From assembly GCA_016793525.1 (NCBI GenBank), contig JAEUJT010000054.1, forward strand, positions 1-6,157: DNA of 6,157 nucleotides, read 5' to 3'. The stretch's first letter is position 1. Every line of letters starts with the position of its first letter. Source of the stretch: Archangium sp. GTDB taxonomy: Bacteria; Myxococcota; Myxococcia; Myxococcales; Myxococcaceae. The translations under genes were made by a program, and so were the position numbers. This document shows, piece by piece, positions 3-5,953 of this stretch. The notes under the pieces were generated by a model. The model had not been told where the DNA came from, did no database searches, and worked only from the letters and a program-made list of their open reading frames with translations.

Positions 3-3000
3 GAGTCGAGCGTGTGCACCACGGCCTGCAGCGCCACCATAGCGTGCGCCTCGGGTGAGGCCTGCGTCTCGGGAAAGTGCGCGCTCCTCCCCTCGGCGTG
101 CGTCAGCGCGTCTGACTGCCCCACCGGGAAGACGTGCTCCAACGCCATCTGCACCGACGCGTGCATCGGCTCGCGCGACTGCCGCGATGGCCTGGTGTGC
201 AGCTTCGGGGTGTGCGTCGCGCCCGGCACCGGCTGCCTCGAAGACAGCAACTGCGCCAGCGGCAAGGCCTGTTCGCCCAACGGAGAATGCGTCGCCTCGT
301 GCACGATGAGCGCCGAGTGCGCGAGCGGAGAGGCATGCTCCAACGGCGCGTGCGTCTCCAGCGGCCCGGCCACCGCCACGCTGTCGGGCCTCGCCACGTT
401 CACCGGGCTGGCCGATCACTCGAGCATCACCGTCACCGTGAAGGGCCCGAGCAACGATCGCGTCACCACCGGCGCGAGCGGCGCGTACAGCTTCGTCGGC
501 CTCAAGCCCGGCCGGTACGAGCTGATCTTCGCCGCGCCTTCGACGCGCGAGCTGCAGCTCTCGGTCGATGTGGCCGCGCTCGCGGGGGCCGACACCACGG
601 TGCCCACTACGTCGTTCACCCCGGTCGGCATTCTCACCGGCAACGTGAAGCTGCAGGGCAACACCCAACACGCCGGCATCCAGGTCGCGCTGGTGGGGCA
701 GAACATCGTCACCAACACCGACACCGCGGGCGACTTCACGCTGCGCAACGTGCCGGTGGGCACACACCAGCTCTTGGCCACCGCCCCGCTCTTCCTCGCG
801 GCGAGCGTGATGACCACGCCGGTCGTCTACAACATGAGCGTCACCCAGCCCGACATCACCATCGCGCCCGCACCGGTGACCACCGGCTCGGTGTTCAGCT
901 TCGTCACCGCGCCGCCCAACACGGGCAAGGTGGGCGTGCCGTACGTGTACACGGCGGTCGCCGGCGGAGGCGGTATTCAGGCCCCCAGCTACGCCGTGGT
1001 GCAGGGCCTCGGAAACATGGCCATCGACGCGTCGACCGGGGTGATGACCTACACGCCGTCGAGCAGCGACTCCGGCTCGCACTGGGTCATCCTCTCCGCG
1101 ACGGGAGGGAACGCGACCGTCTACCAAATCTTCGCGCTCACCATCGAGCAGCCGTTTCGCGTCATCGCGCCGCTCGCCACCGGCAATGCCGATTCGCTCG
1201 GCGCCATCACCTGGGCGACGCAGAGCTCGTCGACGGCCACTGTCACCCGCATCGTCGACGGCGGCGTCGCCGCCACGTTCCCCGGCTCGGCGGAGGCGCG
1301 CTCGAGCACCTTCACCAGCGCGTCGCTCGTCAACGGCGGCACCATCACCTCGGTGCAGGTGCCCACCGGGACGCTCACCGGCGTGGGAGGAACCGTGGGC
1401 ACCTTGGGCCTCACCTGGCAAGGGGGCACCGTGGGTTCGGTCGCGCCGACCAACGCCGCGCTCACCGTGGCCTCGAAGAGCGCCTTCCCGGCCATCACCT
1501 CGACCCGGCTCATCGACGGAGACGTCATCGCCGACGTCACGTTCCCTTCAGGCGTGGCGCAGAGCATCACCGACGGGCGCGCGGTGCCGACCTCCATCGT
1601 GCCCGCGGCGAGCGGCGTGGTGACGTCGGTGACCTCCACGGTGCTCACCGACTCGAGCGCGACCTTCGTCTCGGGCACGGTCAACGGCCAGTGCATCTCG
1701 GATCAAGCGAGCACCAACTGGCTCACCATCACCTCCAGCACCGCGACGACGCTCACCATCTCCTCCGGTAACTTGACCTCGATTCTCTCCGCGGGGCGGA
1801 GGTACTTCATCGTCAACTGCAGCACGGGCCTGACGCCGTACACGTTGACCCAGACCGGCGCCGCGTTCGGCTCGCTCACCAGCAAGGTGCTCGACTTCTA
1901 CGAGGCGGGGTACCCCATCAACGACTACGCGGTGGTCTCCAACACCGCGACCACCATTCTCTTCGGCGCGCCGACCTACGTGTTCACCGACCTGATGGCG
2001 GTGCCGACGGCGGGCTTCTACACGGTGGCCGATCCCGCGGGCACGCCGGTGACGCTGACCAACCCGTCGGCCGCGTTCGCCGGAGGCCTCAGCGCCACCA
2101 ACCGCGTCGCGTTCGACAACATGCCCAGCGGCAGCTTCGCCATCACCGCGAACACGGCGACCACCATCACCTTCACCGTGCCGACGAGCTCGCTGGGGAC
2201 GTTGAGCGCCGCGGGCATGAACTACCGACTCACCAACACCTCGAGCCAGACGCCGGTGACGCTGAGCTTCCCCACCGCCAACTTCCCCTCGTACACCGGG
2301 CGTTCGCTGTGGGTCGACGGCGCGTTCACCACGTTTACCGTGGCGAGCAACACCGCTACCTCGATCGTGGTGAACGTCGACTCCGCGTATTTCCCCCTCA
2401 CCGCGTGGAAAGGCGGGCACGCGGCGGTCTACACCTCGTCTCGGCCGGTCTTCGAGCTCACCGACAGCACCGCCTCGTACCCGGTGAACGGCCTCGCTGG
2501 GCTGCGCCTGTTCCGCATCGTGGGCACCTCGGCCGCCTGGCGTGGCACCGTGGTGAGCAACACCGCGACGACGGTCACGTTCACCTCCTCGAACACCGGC
2601 ACCATTCGCGACCTGCTGACCTTCTTCGACGGCGCGCGCTACGGCTTCGGGACCCAGACCAACACCATTCGCCAGACCGTGACGGTCAACGGCACGCCGA
2701 ACTGGGCGATCGATTCACTCGTGGGCCGCGCGGTGGCGCAGCTCGACGCACCGGCTTTCGAGGCAACGGTCATGAGCAACACCGCCAGCGCGCTGACGCT
2801 CGAGTTCTCCACCAGCTCGACCACCTTCAACGCGTTCGACACCATGCCGGTGGGCGCCGCGCTGGTGATCTCCACCCCGACCGCGCCGTACGGAGACACC
2901 GGGTACCGCCTGACGCTGACCGACCCGACCGCGACCTACGGCGTCAACGCGCTCGCCGGCTTCAACGTCGTCAACGACGAGAGCAACGTGGTGGGCTTCG

Positions 3001-5396
3001 TCCTCTCCAACACCGCGACCCAGCTTCAGCTCTCGGTGACCGAGCTGTCGTACCTCCCCAGGTTGCGGCCGGGCGCGGTGTACGCGCTCGCCAACCCGCA
3101 GCTCGGAGGCTGCAGCCCCTCCGGGCGCATCGCGGCGACGGCGACGCTCACCGGCGCGACGCTGACGACCAACGCGTACCAAGGCGTCACCACCTCCAAC
3201 AGCGGCCTGCTGCAGGTGACGAGCAACACCACCTCGGCGCTCACCGGGTATTTCTGCCCGAGCTCGCTCACCACCATGATGCTCGCGTTGGGCGCGCCGG
3301 CGATGGCGACGAACGGAGGGCGCGGCACCATCACCCTCACCGATTCGGCCGCCGCCTACGCCGCCCAGGCGCTGGTGGGACGCCGTCTCTTCTTCCCGCA
3401 GCTGAGCGACATCAGCTCTGCCATCACCTCGAACACCGCGACGCAGGTGGTGCTGTCGGCGTCTCCCACCGACTTCACCGAGATCGCGGCCAGCGCCAGC
3501 ATCGGCGCGCGCTACGTGGTGGTCGACACCAGCAACAACGCCACGGTGAACCTGGTGACGAACCTCTCCCTCGGGGTCGACGCGTTGAAGGGGCGAGTCG
3601 TGATGCTCCACACCGCGACGAACAACGACGCGTTCAGCGCCTGGGTCGACACCAACACGGCCACCACGCTGAGCCTTCGCGTGGGCACAAATGACATCGA
3701 CTCCTTCCTTCCTCCCGAGCGGCCGTTCGATCGCGTCACCACCTCGGCGGGGGCGACCCTCACCGTCACCGACCCGACCGCGGCCTTCACCGCCGGAGCG
3801 CTGGTGGGCCAGGCGGTGACGGTCGCTGGCTACCCGATGCAGATCGTCGCCAACACCGCGACGACCTTCACCGCGAGCGCCGCGAGCACCGGCGTGTTGA
3901 TCGGCGCGCGCACCTCGAACCTGTACACCTTCTCCGGGCCGTCGAGCACGGCGCTGGTCGCGACCTTGGCCAACGGCGATGGCGTCACGGTGAGCAACGA
4001 TGGCGCTACGCCGACCCTGCGGCGCTACGGCCCGTCGGGTGTGGTGGCGAGGTTCAACGCGCTGAACACAGGCCGGGCGATGACACTGCAAGCCACCACC
4101 GCGGTGAGCGGCGGCACCATCAACCTGGTGACGTCGAGTGGCGGCCTGATGACCTTCCGCGACCAGGCCGCGACGCTCACGCCCAACGCGCACGTCGGCT
4201 GGCTCCTCCGCGCGCGCATCAGCGGCACCAGCACCTACAGCTACCTGGTGGTGTCGAACACGGCGAAGACCATCACCGTGTACAGCACCTCGAGCACGCC
4301 CAGCGTGGGCACGAGCTACACCCTCGAGCCGCTCACCTACACCGTCACCGGTGGTGGACTCACCGCGGGCGCCCTGGTCGGCAAGCGGCTGCGCCTCAAC
4401 GGAGCGGACCTCGCCATTCGCGGCAACACCGCTACCACCGTGACGGTCGTGCCCTCGTTCACGAGCTATTTCGACGCGTACCCGCTGGCCATCAGCGTCG
4501 ACGCGACCACGCCGGCGTGGGTGCTCGAGGGCCTCAGCGGCACGGTCAGCGGCATCACCCGCTCCGGCAACGGCTTCGTGGTGGCGTCGTCGACCGGCGT
4601 CATTCGCTTCGACGGCACGAGCTGGGCGCGCTTCGGAGAGGTGGAGACCGCGACCTCGGCCAGCGCGTCGGGCACGGTCACCTCGACCTCCGGCACCAAC
4701 GTCTACGACTCGAGCGCCAACTACGTGTCGAACGCGTTGGCGGGCAAGCGGCTCCGCCTGCCGTCGGGGGTGTTCTCCATCTCCGGCAACAGCCGCGACA
4801 CCCTTTTCCTCTCCGGCATCGGGAACTTCACCGTGCCGCTGCCCGGCGAGGCGTATTCGGTGCTCAACGACGACGGGCTGACGTCTGCGGCCGACGTGGC
4901 CTTCGCCACCAACGTGTTGTGGGTGGCCACTCCGGGGCGCGGGTTGTTCCGCCTGCAGGGTTCGGCGTGGAGCCGGTTCACCGTGGCCTCGACCGAATCG
5001 TCACCGGGCCTCGGCAACGGCCTCGCGACCAACACGCTCTACCGGGTGCACTCGGCGTTCGACACCGAGGTCTTCACGTCGGATCAACCCTTCTACTCCG
5101 TCGGCGTCTCGCGCCTGTCGATGACCACCTGGACCCAGCTCTCCGCCGCCACCACCGCGTCGGCGCCGGGGCTGACTGACGGGCTGCCCTCGAACACCGT
5201 GTACGACGTGCTGTCGCTCGGCTCGTCGACCTGGTTCGCCACCAGCGACGGCGTGGCCCGGCTCGCCGGCAGCACGTGGACCACCATCGGCAGCGTGCAG
5301 GGCCTCCCTTCCTCGAATACCGGAGCGCTGGTCACCGGCCCTACGGGACAGATCTGGTACGCCTCGACCCGCGGCCTGGTGCAGCTCAACCCGTGA
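3..5396 (+). CDS. Giant modular surface/secreted protein, 5'-partial (Cys-rich repeats, beta-sandwich domains, SNTATT repeats, beta-propeller)
   Basis: The frame is open from the window edge (first full codon at 3) to TGA at 5394-5396, about 1797 residues. The GTG at 12 is not convincing as the true start, because the codons before it stay open and the Cys-rich repeats are already under way, so the N-terminus and any signal peptide lie upstream. Domain order by nucleotide position: five four-Cys repeats (27-353), two carboxypeptidase-regulatory-like beta-sandwiches (about 375-866), an Ig-like/putative He_PIG-type domain (about 894-1151), a Gly/Thr/Val-rich beta stretch without clear family (1152-1628), about 14 SNTATT repeats (1629-4871) and beta-propeller-like blades (3945-5393). 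The composition is Thr/Ser/Ala/Val/Gly-rich with almost no Lys, as in extracellular bacterial beta proteins. No membrane segment or C-terminal sorting signal is visible; the protein ends in the last blade. An adhesin-like, structural or ligand-binding surface role is inference. No enzyme motif was seen. Confidence 0.9.
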   Translation, partial: ESSVCTTACSATIACASGEACVSGKCALLPSACVSASDCPTGKTCSNAICTDACIGSRDCRDGLVCSFGVCVAPGTGCLEDSNCASGKACSPNGECVASCTMSAECASGEACSNGACVSSGPATATLSGLATFTGLADHSSITVTVKGPSNDRVTTGASGAYSFVGLKPGRYELIFAAPSTRELQLSVDVAALAGADTTVPTTSFTPVGILTGNVKLQGNTQHAGIQVALVGQNIVTNTDTAGDFTLRNVPVGTHQLLATAPLFLAASVMTTPVVYNMSVTQPDITIAPAPVTTGSVFSFVTAPPNTGKVGVPYVYTAVAGGGGIQAPSYAVVQGLGNMAIDASTGVMTYTPSSSDSGSHWVILSATGGNATVYQIFALTIEQPFRVIAPLATGNADSLGAITWATQSSSTATVTRIVDGGVAATFPGSAEARSSTFTSASLVNGGTITSVQVPTGTLTGVGGTVGTLGLTWQGGTVGSVAPTNAALTVASKSAFPAITSTRLIDGDVIADVTFPSGVAQSITDGRAVPTSIVPAASGVVTSVTSTVLTDSSATFVSGTVNGQCISDQASTNWLTITSSTATTLTISSGNLTSILSAGRRYFIVNCSTGLTPYTLTQTGAAFGSLTSKVLDFYEAGYPINDYAVVSNTATTILFGAPTYVFTDLMAVPTAGFYTVADPAGTPVTLTNPSAAFAGGLSATNRVAFDNMPSGSFAITANTATTITFTVPTSSLGTLSAAGMNYRLTNTSSQTPVTLSFPTANFPSYTGRSLWVDGAFTTFTVASNTATSIVVNVDSAYFPLTAWKGGHAAVYTSSRPVFELTDSTASYPVNGLAGLRLFRIVGTSAAWRGTVVSNTATTVTFTSSNTGTIRDLLTFFDGARYGFGTQTNTIRQTVTVNGTPNWAIDSLVGRAVAQLDAPAFEATVMSNTASALTLEFSTSSTTFNAFDTMPVGAALVISTPTAPYGDTGYRLTLTDPTATYGVNALAGFNVVNDESNVVGFVLSNTATQLQLSVTELSYLPRLRPGAVYALANPQLGGCSPSGRIAATATLTGATLTTNAYQGVTTSNSGLLQVTSNTTSALTGYFCPSSLTTMMLALGAPAMATNGGRGTITLTDSAAAYAAQALVGRRLFFPQLSDISSAITSNTATQVVLSASPTDFTEIAASASIGARYVVVDTSNNATVNLVTNLSLGVDALKGRVVMLHTATNNDAFSAWVDTNTATTLSLRVGTNDIDSFLPPERPFDRVTTSAGATLTVTDPTAAFTAGALVGQAVTVAGYPMQIVANTATTFTASAASTGVLIGARTSNLYTFSGPSSTALVATLANGDGVTVSNDGATPTLRRYGPSGVVARFNALNTGRAMTLQATTAVSGGTINLVTSSGGLMTFRDQAATLTPNAHVGWLLRARISGTSTYSYLVVSNTAKTITVYSTSSTPSVGTSYTLEPLTYTVTGGGLTAGALVGKRLRLNGADLAIRGNTATTVTVVPSFTSYFDAYPLAISVDATTPAWVLEGLSGTVSGITRSGNGFVVASSTGVIRFDGTSWARFGEVETATSASASGTVTSTSGTNVYDSSANYVSNALAGKRLRLPSGVFSISGNSRDTLFLSGIGNFTVPLPGEAYSVLNDDGLTSAADVAFATNVLWVATPGRGLFRLQGSAWSRFTVASTESSPGLGNGLATNTLYRVHSAFDTEVFTSDQPFYSVGVSRLSMTTWTQLSAATTASAPGLTDGLPSNTVYDVLSLGSSTWFATSDGVARLAGSTWTTIGSVQGLPSSNTGALVTGPTGQIWYASTRGLVQLNP
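27..353 (+). repeat. Five tandem four-cysteine repeats in the giant protein
   Basis: Five consecutive units follow the pattern C-x5-C-x5-C-x4/5-C, for example CVSASDCPTGKTCSNAIC and CTMSAECASGEACSNGAC. A Gly at the third position after the second Cys recurs in every unit. The linkers between units are 2 to 6 residues. Such Cys-rich tandem units are common near the N-termini of secreted myxobacterial proteins and are expected to be disulfide-bonded outside the cytoplasm (family knowledge). More units may lie upstream of the window. Confidence 0.85.
375..866 (+). other. Two carboxypeptidase regulatory-like (prealbumin-type) beta-sandwich domains
   Basis: Unit one (about 375-600) has the hallmark order of G-x-A-x-F-x-G, an ITVTVKG strand, TTGASGAYSFVGLKPGRYEL and a following hydrophobic strand. 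Unit two (about 627-866) repeats it: GILTGNVKL, GIQVALVG, NTDTAGDFTLRNVPVGTHQL. The pairs T-x-x-x-G-x-[YF]-x-[FL]-x-x-[LV]-x-x-G are diagnostic of this fold, which acts as a rigid spacer or binding module in surface proteins. Confidence 0.75.
894..1151 (+). other. Putative Ig-like (He_PIG/cadherin-like) domain
   Basis: The segment reads P-x4-G-x-x-Y-x-Y near its start, then MAIDASTGVMTYTPSSSDSG, and closes with an alternating hydrophobic strand ending FALTIEQ. The ID-x-x-TG-x-x-x-Y-TP signature followed by a D-x-G turn is typical of bacterial putative-Ig and cadherin-like repeats. Only one copy is visible. Assignment is by motif reading alone. Confidence 0.55.
1629..4871 (+). repeat. Array of about 14 SNTATT beta repeats (period about 66-77 residues)
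   Basis: A recurring unit runs: hydrophobic strand with TLTD-x-TA-x-[YF], then NALAG or a variant with a hydrophobic strand, then [VI]-x-SNTATT-[VIL]-x-[VF], then a variable loop ending in Y-x-[VL]. The motif blocks begin at 1728, 1932, 2142, 2340, 2550, 2769, 3000, 3216, 3423, 3645, 3843, 4248, 4416 and 4779. Spacing is 198-231 nt through the first eleven, then 405, 168 and 363 nt where other sequence intervenes. Copies at 3216 (SNTTSA) and 4779 (GNSRDT) are degenerate. The DNA of the motif is also conserved (aacaccgcgac in many copies), which suggests spread by duplication. Resembles SNT-ATTLTV repeats seen in phage and bacterial surface proteins; no function assigned. Confidence 0.8.
3945..5393 (+). 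other. Interrupted beta-propeller-like blades at the C-terminus
   Basis: Blade-like units resemble the two-component-regulator propeller pattern (GLPSNxVxx... LWxATxxGLxRxxGxxWxxF). Visible copies: about 3945-4074 (weak), 4518-4643 (GVIRFDGTSWARFG), 4869-4985 (LWVATPGRGLFRLQGSAWSR), 5007-5144 (degenerate, contains WTQLS), 5169-5291 (GLPSNTVYDV, then WFATSDGVARLAGSTWTTIG) and 5301-5393 (GLPSSNT, QIWYASTRGLVQL). That gives five or six blades, a plausible propeller count. SNTATT repeats sit between the first and second units and between the second and third. Confidence 0.6.
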
Positions 5397-5399
5397 GGT
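5393..5399 (+). promoter_or_regulatory. Probable ribosome binding site of the selenoprotein gene
   Basis: GTGAGGT overlaps the stop codon of the upstream giant gene and lies about 11-12 nt before the ATG at 5411. The GAGG core is a fair Shine-Dalgarno match, with spacing at the long end. It supports the ATG at 5411 as the start, because that start also yields a lipoprotein signal peptide. Its position in the upstream stop codon suggests translation follows from the same transcript. Confidence 0.5.
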
Positions 5400-5410
5400 A
5401 CATTCGCGCC

Positions 5411-5953
5411 ATGCGCACTCCCTTTGCGTTCGCCAACGGCTTCTCGCTGCCGCTCCTCGCGTCGCTCATCATGGCGTGTCAGCCGGCGGCCCCGGTCACT
5501 CCCGGCGAAGCGATGCCCGACTTCACCCTCACCGACGTGAACCCGGCCTCGATGACGGCAGGCCAACCGGTGTCGGTGCGGAGCCTCCAGGGGCGAGTGA
5601 GCGCCTGGTACTTCACCCACACCACCTGAGGGTATTGCCGGGGCCAGTTTGGCCTCCTCCAGAACCTGCAGAACGAGCTCGAGGCCGAGGCGCCCGGAGC
5701 CTTTGTCGTGCTCGGGGTCAACCTCTCCGGGCACGAAGCGGGCAACGCCGACTTCGTGATGGGGCGCGCGTTGCCGCTGCTGCAAGACACGCCACAGGTC
5801 GACGCGTGGAATGCGTGGCACACCGCCTGGCGCGACGTGGTGGTGCTCGACGCGAGCAACGCCAAGCGGGGGGTGTTGAACCTCACCTCCCACGACCTCA
5901 CCGTGCCGGCCAACTTCGCCGCGCTCAAGCAGCTGCTGCTCGACGCGCGGTGA
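5411..5953 (+). CDS. Selenocysteine-containing thioredoxin-fold lipoprotein (UGA at codon 73; SelP-N-like candidate)
   Basis: The ATG at 5411 and TGA at 5951-5953 are in one frame (180 residues), broken only by TGA at 5627-5629, read here as selenocysteine. Residues 1-22 form a signal peptide ending in a lipobox-like IMA-C, so Cys23 would be lipidated and the domain would face the periplasm or surface. Residues 31-42 (PGEAMPDFTLTD) match the start of redoxin/AhpC-TSA domains. VSAWYFTHTT (63-72) is the strand before the active site. U73-G74-Y75-C76 takes the place of the thioredoxin CxxC, followed by an amphipathic helix (LLQNLQNELEAE) and the strand FVVLGVN (98-104). The rest includes LPLLQ (121-125), W133 and the strand DVVVLD (142-147). 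A thiol/selenol redox role in the envelope is inferred from the fold. The gene lies 14 bp after the giant gene, probably in one operon. Alternatives: a pseudogene or sequencing error changing TGC to TGA. The single disruption, its exact position and the hairpin after it argue against both. Confidence 0.85.
5627..5629 (+). other. In-frame UGA, predicted selenocysteine codon (Sec73)
   Basis: This TGA is 72 codons after the ATG and is followed by GGG TAT TGC, giving U-G-Y-C. It is the only stop codon in the frame before 5951. Sec replacing the first Cys of CxxC is the commonest position in known redox selenoproteins. Sequence before and after it belongs to the same thioredoxin-like fold. Confidence 0.85.
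5640..5656 (+). promoter_or_regulatory. Candidate bacterial SECIS hairpin
   Basis: Positions 5640-5646 (GGGGCCA) pair with 5650-5656 (TGGCCTC) around the three-base loop GTT at 5647-5649. This gives seven pairs including one G-U (5641 with 5655); the five-pair upper stem is perfect. An alternative register bulges U5655 and pairs G5641-C5656 and G5640-C5657. The loop begins with G, and 17 nt separate the UGA from it, close to the spacing in E. coli fdhF (about 18 nt to the GGUCU loop). Within the coding sequence, this is where bacterial SelB-binding SECIS elements lie. The lower stem is not clear, and no folding energy was calculated. Confidence 0.7.

Follow-up and report, generated by a model that had tools for sequence, protein, structure and literature searches.

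The window analysed here, a stretch of 6,157 nucleotides of Archangium sp. DNA (contig JAEUJT010000054.1, forward strand), holds a reading frame that runs from an ATG at 5411 through a TGA at 5627-5629 to a TGA at 5951-5953, with no further stop in between. We consider it very probable that this frame is a member of the family NF053656 in which the first UGA is likely read as selenocysteine (Sec) by means of a predicted Sec insertion sequence (SECIS) hairpin just downstream, and whose product is predicted to be a thioredoxin-fold redox lipoprotein destined for export. The 180-residue read-through product has a hydrophobic start followed by a single domain with the motif T-U-G-Y-C-R at residues 72-77. 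Gene calling with translation table 11 cut the frame in two: one piece ends at 5629, and the other is an open reading frame (ORF) of 81 amino acids at 5708-5953. A first-pass annotation of this DNA had claimed that the three codons share an otherwise uninterrupted frame, that one thioredoxin-like domain spans the UGA, that the UGA stands at the catalytic Cys position with Cys76 intact, and that gene callers split the gene there. These claims were borne out by the frame reading, by the match to NF053656 (a thioredoxin-fold model), by homologues with UGA or Cys at the site, and by the table 11 calls, respectively. The features are collected in Table 1.

Table 1. Positions of features in the window and, in the last four rows, genes of the sister subfamily from relatives
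Feature	Position	Strand	Remarks
Whole gene of the putative selenoprotein	5411-5953	+	180 codons, UGA = codon 73, stop TGA 5951-5953; NF053656 match to residues 35-179
Likely selenocysteine codon, in-frame UGA (residue 73)	5627-5629	+	TGA in aligned relatives, Cys in others
Cys76 codon, putative resolving residue of UxxC	5636-5638	+	Cys in each of the 23 sequences of alignment A5
Predicted SECIS hairpin	5640-5656	+	5640-5645 pair with 5651-5656; loop AGUUU 5646-5650; G at 5647, 18 nt after UGA
Arg141 codon	5831-5833	+	Arg opposite Pro of the ResA LPT turn; unchanged across the 23 sequences of A5
Hydrophobic N-terminus with lipobox-like LIMAC (residues 19-23)	5411-5479	+	Cys23 (5477-5479) = predicted lipidated residue; by eye and crude pattern
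GAGG, possible weak ribosome-binding site	5395-5398	+	12 nt before ATG 5411; by eye
Sister UGA gene L034	1270-1941	+	
Sister UGA genes L035, L028		-	
Sister UGA genes L054, L055			
Sister Cys forms L056, L059			

The Cys of a lipobox is the lipidated residue, and the label of exported lipoprotein is predicted here from the lipobox-like LIMAC found with a crude pattern; the same pattern detected such a start in 11 of the 23 genes examined. Upstream, window positions 3-5396 (+) are occupied by a repetitive ORF of 1797 codons, open at its left end and Cys-rich at its start, which contains carboxypeptidase-regulatory-like domains (PF13620, PF13715) and whose stop lies 14 bases before ATG 5411.

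Family assignment and homologues

The window protein matched NCBIfam model NF053656 with 191.6 bits (cut-off 100) over profile positions 1-146 of 146. This model, redoxin_TUGYCR, is described as 'TUGYCR motif thioredoxin fold (seleno)protein'; its exact motif is present in the window protein, and no feature distinguishing the window gene from the family was found. The best Pfam match was AhpC-TSA (PF00578, 27.5 bits, cut-off 26), while PF08534 remained under its own cut-off. Where the first-pass annotation spoke of an unannotated selenoprotein, the second word held, given homologues with UGA or Cys at the site and no TAA or TAG, but the family is not a new one, because NCBIfam already lists it as a (seleno)protein. 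The window gene is thus a sound new member of a known family and not a new kind. In the open-licence literature searched, including that on myxobacterial selenoproteins, we found no paper that names NF053656 or TUGYCR or treats the family. A 'Redoxin family protein PF08534 UxxC' appears in a 2026 review (PMC13188914), in which a text search for NF053656 found none.

A search spanning 5.8 billion proteins returned seven homologues. Three (P0002, P0003, P0005) are full-length proteins with Cys at the UGA site, and the other four are 99-residue pieces that start after the Sec codon, two of them named 'hypothetical protein'; these pieces show the gene to be a clear case of standard callers splitting at UGA. 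A scan of genome contigs gave 11 loci, with TGA at the site in L001-L006 and Cys in L007-L011; the TGA loci came from Myxococcaceae (L001, L002), Phycisphaerae (L003), an uncultured bacterium (L004), Planctomycetota (L005) and 'Proteobacteria' (L006). Homologues with Cys and with UGA at residue 73, as sought on the suggestion of the first-pass annotation, were thus both obtained, across protein and genome searches.

NF053656 was also searched against the phyla of genomes G001 and G003, which we take to be Myxococcota and Planctomycetota from the taxa just named and general taxonomy. In the former, 13 of 195 genomes exceeded the cut-off (15 matches, 14 with one TGA); in the latter, 13 of 246 genomes, a sample of a larger group, did so (17 matches, 14 with one TGA). 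Pooled, 28 of the 32 matches above the cut-off contained exactly one internal stop, always TGA, and neither TAA nor TAG occurred inside any of the 32 from these two sampled phyla, so that the scattered stops envisaged as a counter-sign in the first-pass annotation were not seen. The four matches without TGA were the Cys form L032, two N-terminal Ser domains of tandem proteins, and a partial match whose first aligned profile position is 42. When the sequences were aligned, 18 loci of relatives and three loci of a sister subfamily (motif UxxCRS, described below) carried TGA at the position of codon 73, and L032 carried TGC; the Cys76 column is lost in the Ser-type tandem domains.

Codon substitution patterns show purifying selection both before and after the UGA. 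The ratio of nonsynonymous to synonymous substitution (dN/dS, Nei-Gojobori method) was below 1 on either side in every one of the 13 pairs computed; between the window and nine relatives it was 0.20-0.73 before the UGA (35-38 codons) and 0.35-0.56 after it (107 codons), values that are rough because synonymous distances are large in several pairs.

Two variants within the family were observed alongside. The tandem-domain proteins L065 and L066 (G416:C470, G267:C135) have a second domain with UGA and a full stem, and a first domain whose two redox positions are Ser and Ala and which lacks an equivalent of Arg141. Genome G181 carries two Sec forms (L020, L037) and one Cys form (L032) of the family.

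The predicted SECIS hairpin and the Sec machinery of relatives

Across 22 UGA genes (21 distinct; alignment A3), three of them from the sister subfamily, bases 11-16 after the UGA can pair with bases 22-27 to form a 6-bp stem closed by a five-base loop, AGUUU, AGUUC or AGGCU. Of the 126 cells, 125 were paired (99.2%); shuffles averaged 77.3%, and slid versions gave 28.6-63.5%. Both partners vary in five of the six pairs, a value that 5 of 500 shuffles reached. Such two-sided changes occur in 23 cells as against 5.0 in shuffles, and none of the 500 came as high; these shuffles do not preserve relatedness among genes. RNAalifold, unprompted, returned the same stem with one extra A-U pair. All six pairs were also formed in seven of nine further UGA loci from Planctomycetota and in the sister genes L054 and L055. 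In total, 30 of the 33 UGA genes examined, a set with ten of the 14 TGA matches from Planctomycetota, have the full stem, and L004 has five pairs; in ten homologues or domains without UGA, 0-4 pairs were formed and the stem was complete in none. The loop and its distance from the UGA agree with the bacterial SECIS model as given in a published review (PMC13188914). We predict from these comparisons that the hairpin is a SECIS, with covariation across genes and weak single-sequence tests. For NF053656 as a family, the comparisons add covariation as evidence of its Sec hairpin.

Genes for Sec synthesis and insertion were searched in 17 genomes with UGA genes (G001-G006, G117, G119, G123, G160-G164, G173, G181 and G200); 12 other Planctomycetota-type genomes above the NF053656 cut-off lay outside these searches. 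selD exceeded its cut-off in all 17, selA was found in 16 (none in G003), and selB in 15 (no match in G117 or G163 at an expectation value (E) of 1e-60). With the best 150 candidates per genome scored, tRNA-Sec exceeded the gathering score in at least 14, the others being G004, G005 and G119. The complete set of selA, selB, selD and tRNA-Sec was found in at least 11 of the 17, and gaps are expected because some of the genomes are metagenome bins. In six of the 17 genomes (G003, G004, G005, G119, G173, G200) the best selD match contains a single internal TGA, and SelD is therefore probably itself a selenoprotein there.

Several observations weigh against Sec insertion at the window's UGA. The UGA is known here from DNA alone, and the sel genes are those of relatives' genomes rather than the window's own; selA presence in itself says little, because selA is common in Myxococcota anyway (above cut-off in 150 of 195 genomes). 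The window hairpin, taken singly, folds no better than shuffles (z = -0.21), synonymous resampling gave P = 0.10 for the window and 0.005-0.115 across 22 sequences, and an Rfam scan of the window yielded no match at the gathering score. Among the UGA genes, the stem is incomplete in L063 (4 of 6 pairs) and L067 (3 of 6).

Two explanations without Sec have to be set against this. The gene might be a CxxC redoxin broken at one codon by a nonsense change, or by a sequencing error, as the existence of Cys homologues (P0002, P0003, P0005, L032) and the cutting of the frame by gene callers would allow; yet TGA recurs at the same codon in 28 of the 32 matches above the cut-off, drawn from many genomes, with neither TAA nor TAG in any of the 32, dN/dS stays below 1 after the UGA in every pair computed, and the hairpin covaries. 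For the family this explanation is refuted by the recurrent TGA, the selection and the covarying hairpin, and for the window gene it is highly improbable. We give equally little credence to a reading of UGA as Trp or another residue throughout, or to leaky termination, in either case without Sec: the frame does stay open when UGA is translated, but the 1797-codon frame upstream is free of internal TGA and, like this gene, uses TGA as its stop, relatives show Cys or UGA rather than Trp at the site, and sel genes are present in relatives' genomes. A variant code was rejected on these grounds. As judged by comparative sequence evidence, it is almost certain that Sec would be inserted at the UGA.

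The sister subfamily

The comparison further points to a sister subfamily that the NF053656 cut-off excludes, L034 and L028 scoring 47.6 and 36.6 bits against it. These two and L035 share both the TGA position and the stem of the NF053656 UGA genes. A search of the 195 genomes, with the 15 best candidates scored in most, found at least seven matches covering most of the model, in six genomes; among those seven, five have one TGA and the full stem, and two are Cys forms without the stem. Just upstream of L034 lies an ORF that ends in a thioredoxin domain (PF00085, WCAPC) and has an orthologue upstream of L035 (93% identity) and of L028 (55% identity). The UxxCRS sister subfamily is the least catalogued part of what was seen. 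Tentatively, and with the balance of probability against it, we propose that a single superfamily of exported Sec enzymes, spread over Myxococcota and Planctomycetota, unites the TUGYCR and UxxCRS proteins. On this proposal Arg, or His in the sister subfamily, would take the place of the thioredoxin active-site Pro and give peroxidase-like selenoenzymes built on a ResA-like frame, and the sister branch, whose genes directly follow one for a thioredoxin-domain protein, would be an uncatalogued selenoprotein family.

Possible activity and relation to known systems

The structure model of the window protein (predicted local distance difference test score, pLDDT, 89.6) was closest to ResA and next to peroxiredoxins, with thioredoxin-fold chains making up the matches listed. 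Residue 73 lies just ahead of the first long helix (74-93), the UxxC being U73-G-Y-C76. As a working mechanism, SelB would bind the hairpin and Sec would be inserted at codon 73, and the N-terminus would export and anchor the protein. Sec73 would then attack an oxidised substrate, a hydroperoxide or a protein disulfide; Cys76 would resolve the Sec73 intermediate to a Se-S bond, which a thioredoxin-like donor would reduce.

The substrate is the least secure part of this scheme. Peroxiredoxin-like chemistry, in which peroxides or oxidised thiols would be reduced outside the cytoplasm, is favoured because an almost unvarying Arg occupies the position of the Pro in ResA-type reductases, and we regard it as possible, though noticeably short of an even prospect. 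Against it, the UGA gene L067 has Asp at the Arg141 position, and a profile of the C-terminal half searched against PDB for the peroxiredoxin Arg gave a single irrelevant match (E 0.89). Gene neighbourhoods, compared for 23 genes with crude gene calling and all-against-all BLASTP, offer no functional clue either, because conservation is limited to close relatives (L001, L002, L017, L018, L022, L024) and the sister subfamily; other matches were scattered, and the window's upstream ORF had no match among the neighbours compared. Sec might instead be inserted into a ResA/TlpA-like thiol-disulfide reductase (or isomerase) that serves exported proteins and is no peroxidase, for which the chances come near to even; here Arg in all 23 sequences of A5 in place of the LPT-turn Pro, a score of 14.3 bits against 230 for the NCBIfam TlpA model, and AhpC-TSA as the best Pfam match speak on the other side.

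With TlpA/ResA reductases the window protein shares a CxxC (or UxxC) where the first long helix begins, and differs in having predicted Sec for the first Cys and Arg141 for the LPT-turn Pro, a position assigned by a weak profile alignment to 2h1b (E 0.039). In ResA this Pro has the cis form. With peroxiredoxins it shares the AhpC-TSA domain; their TxxC/TxxU is absent, His70 standing three residues before U73, which also tells against a peroxiredoxin-like substrate. TxxU is given as the peroxiredoxin motif in PMC1088965. Likened by description, the Prx-like UxxC selenoproteins (PMC1088965, PMC9312934) have an AhpC-TSA/redoxin-type domain with UxxC for CxxC or TxxU, and the 'Redoxin family protein' with UxxC (PMC13188914) combines a redoxin-type domain with UxxC as the window protein does.
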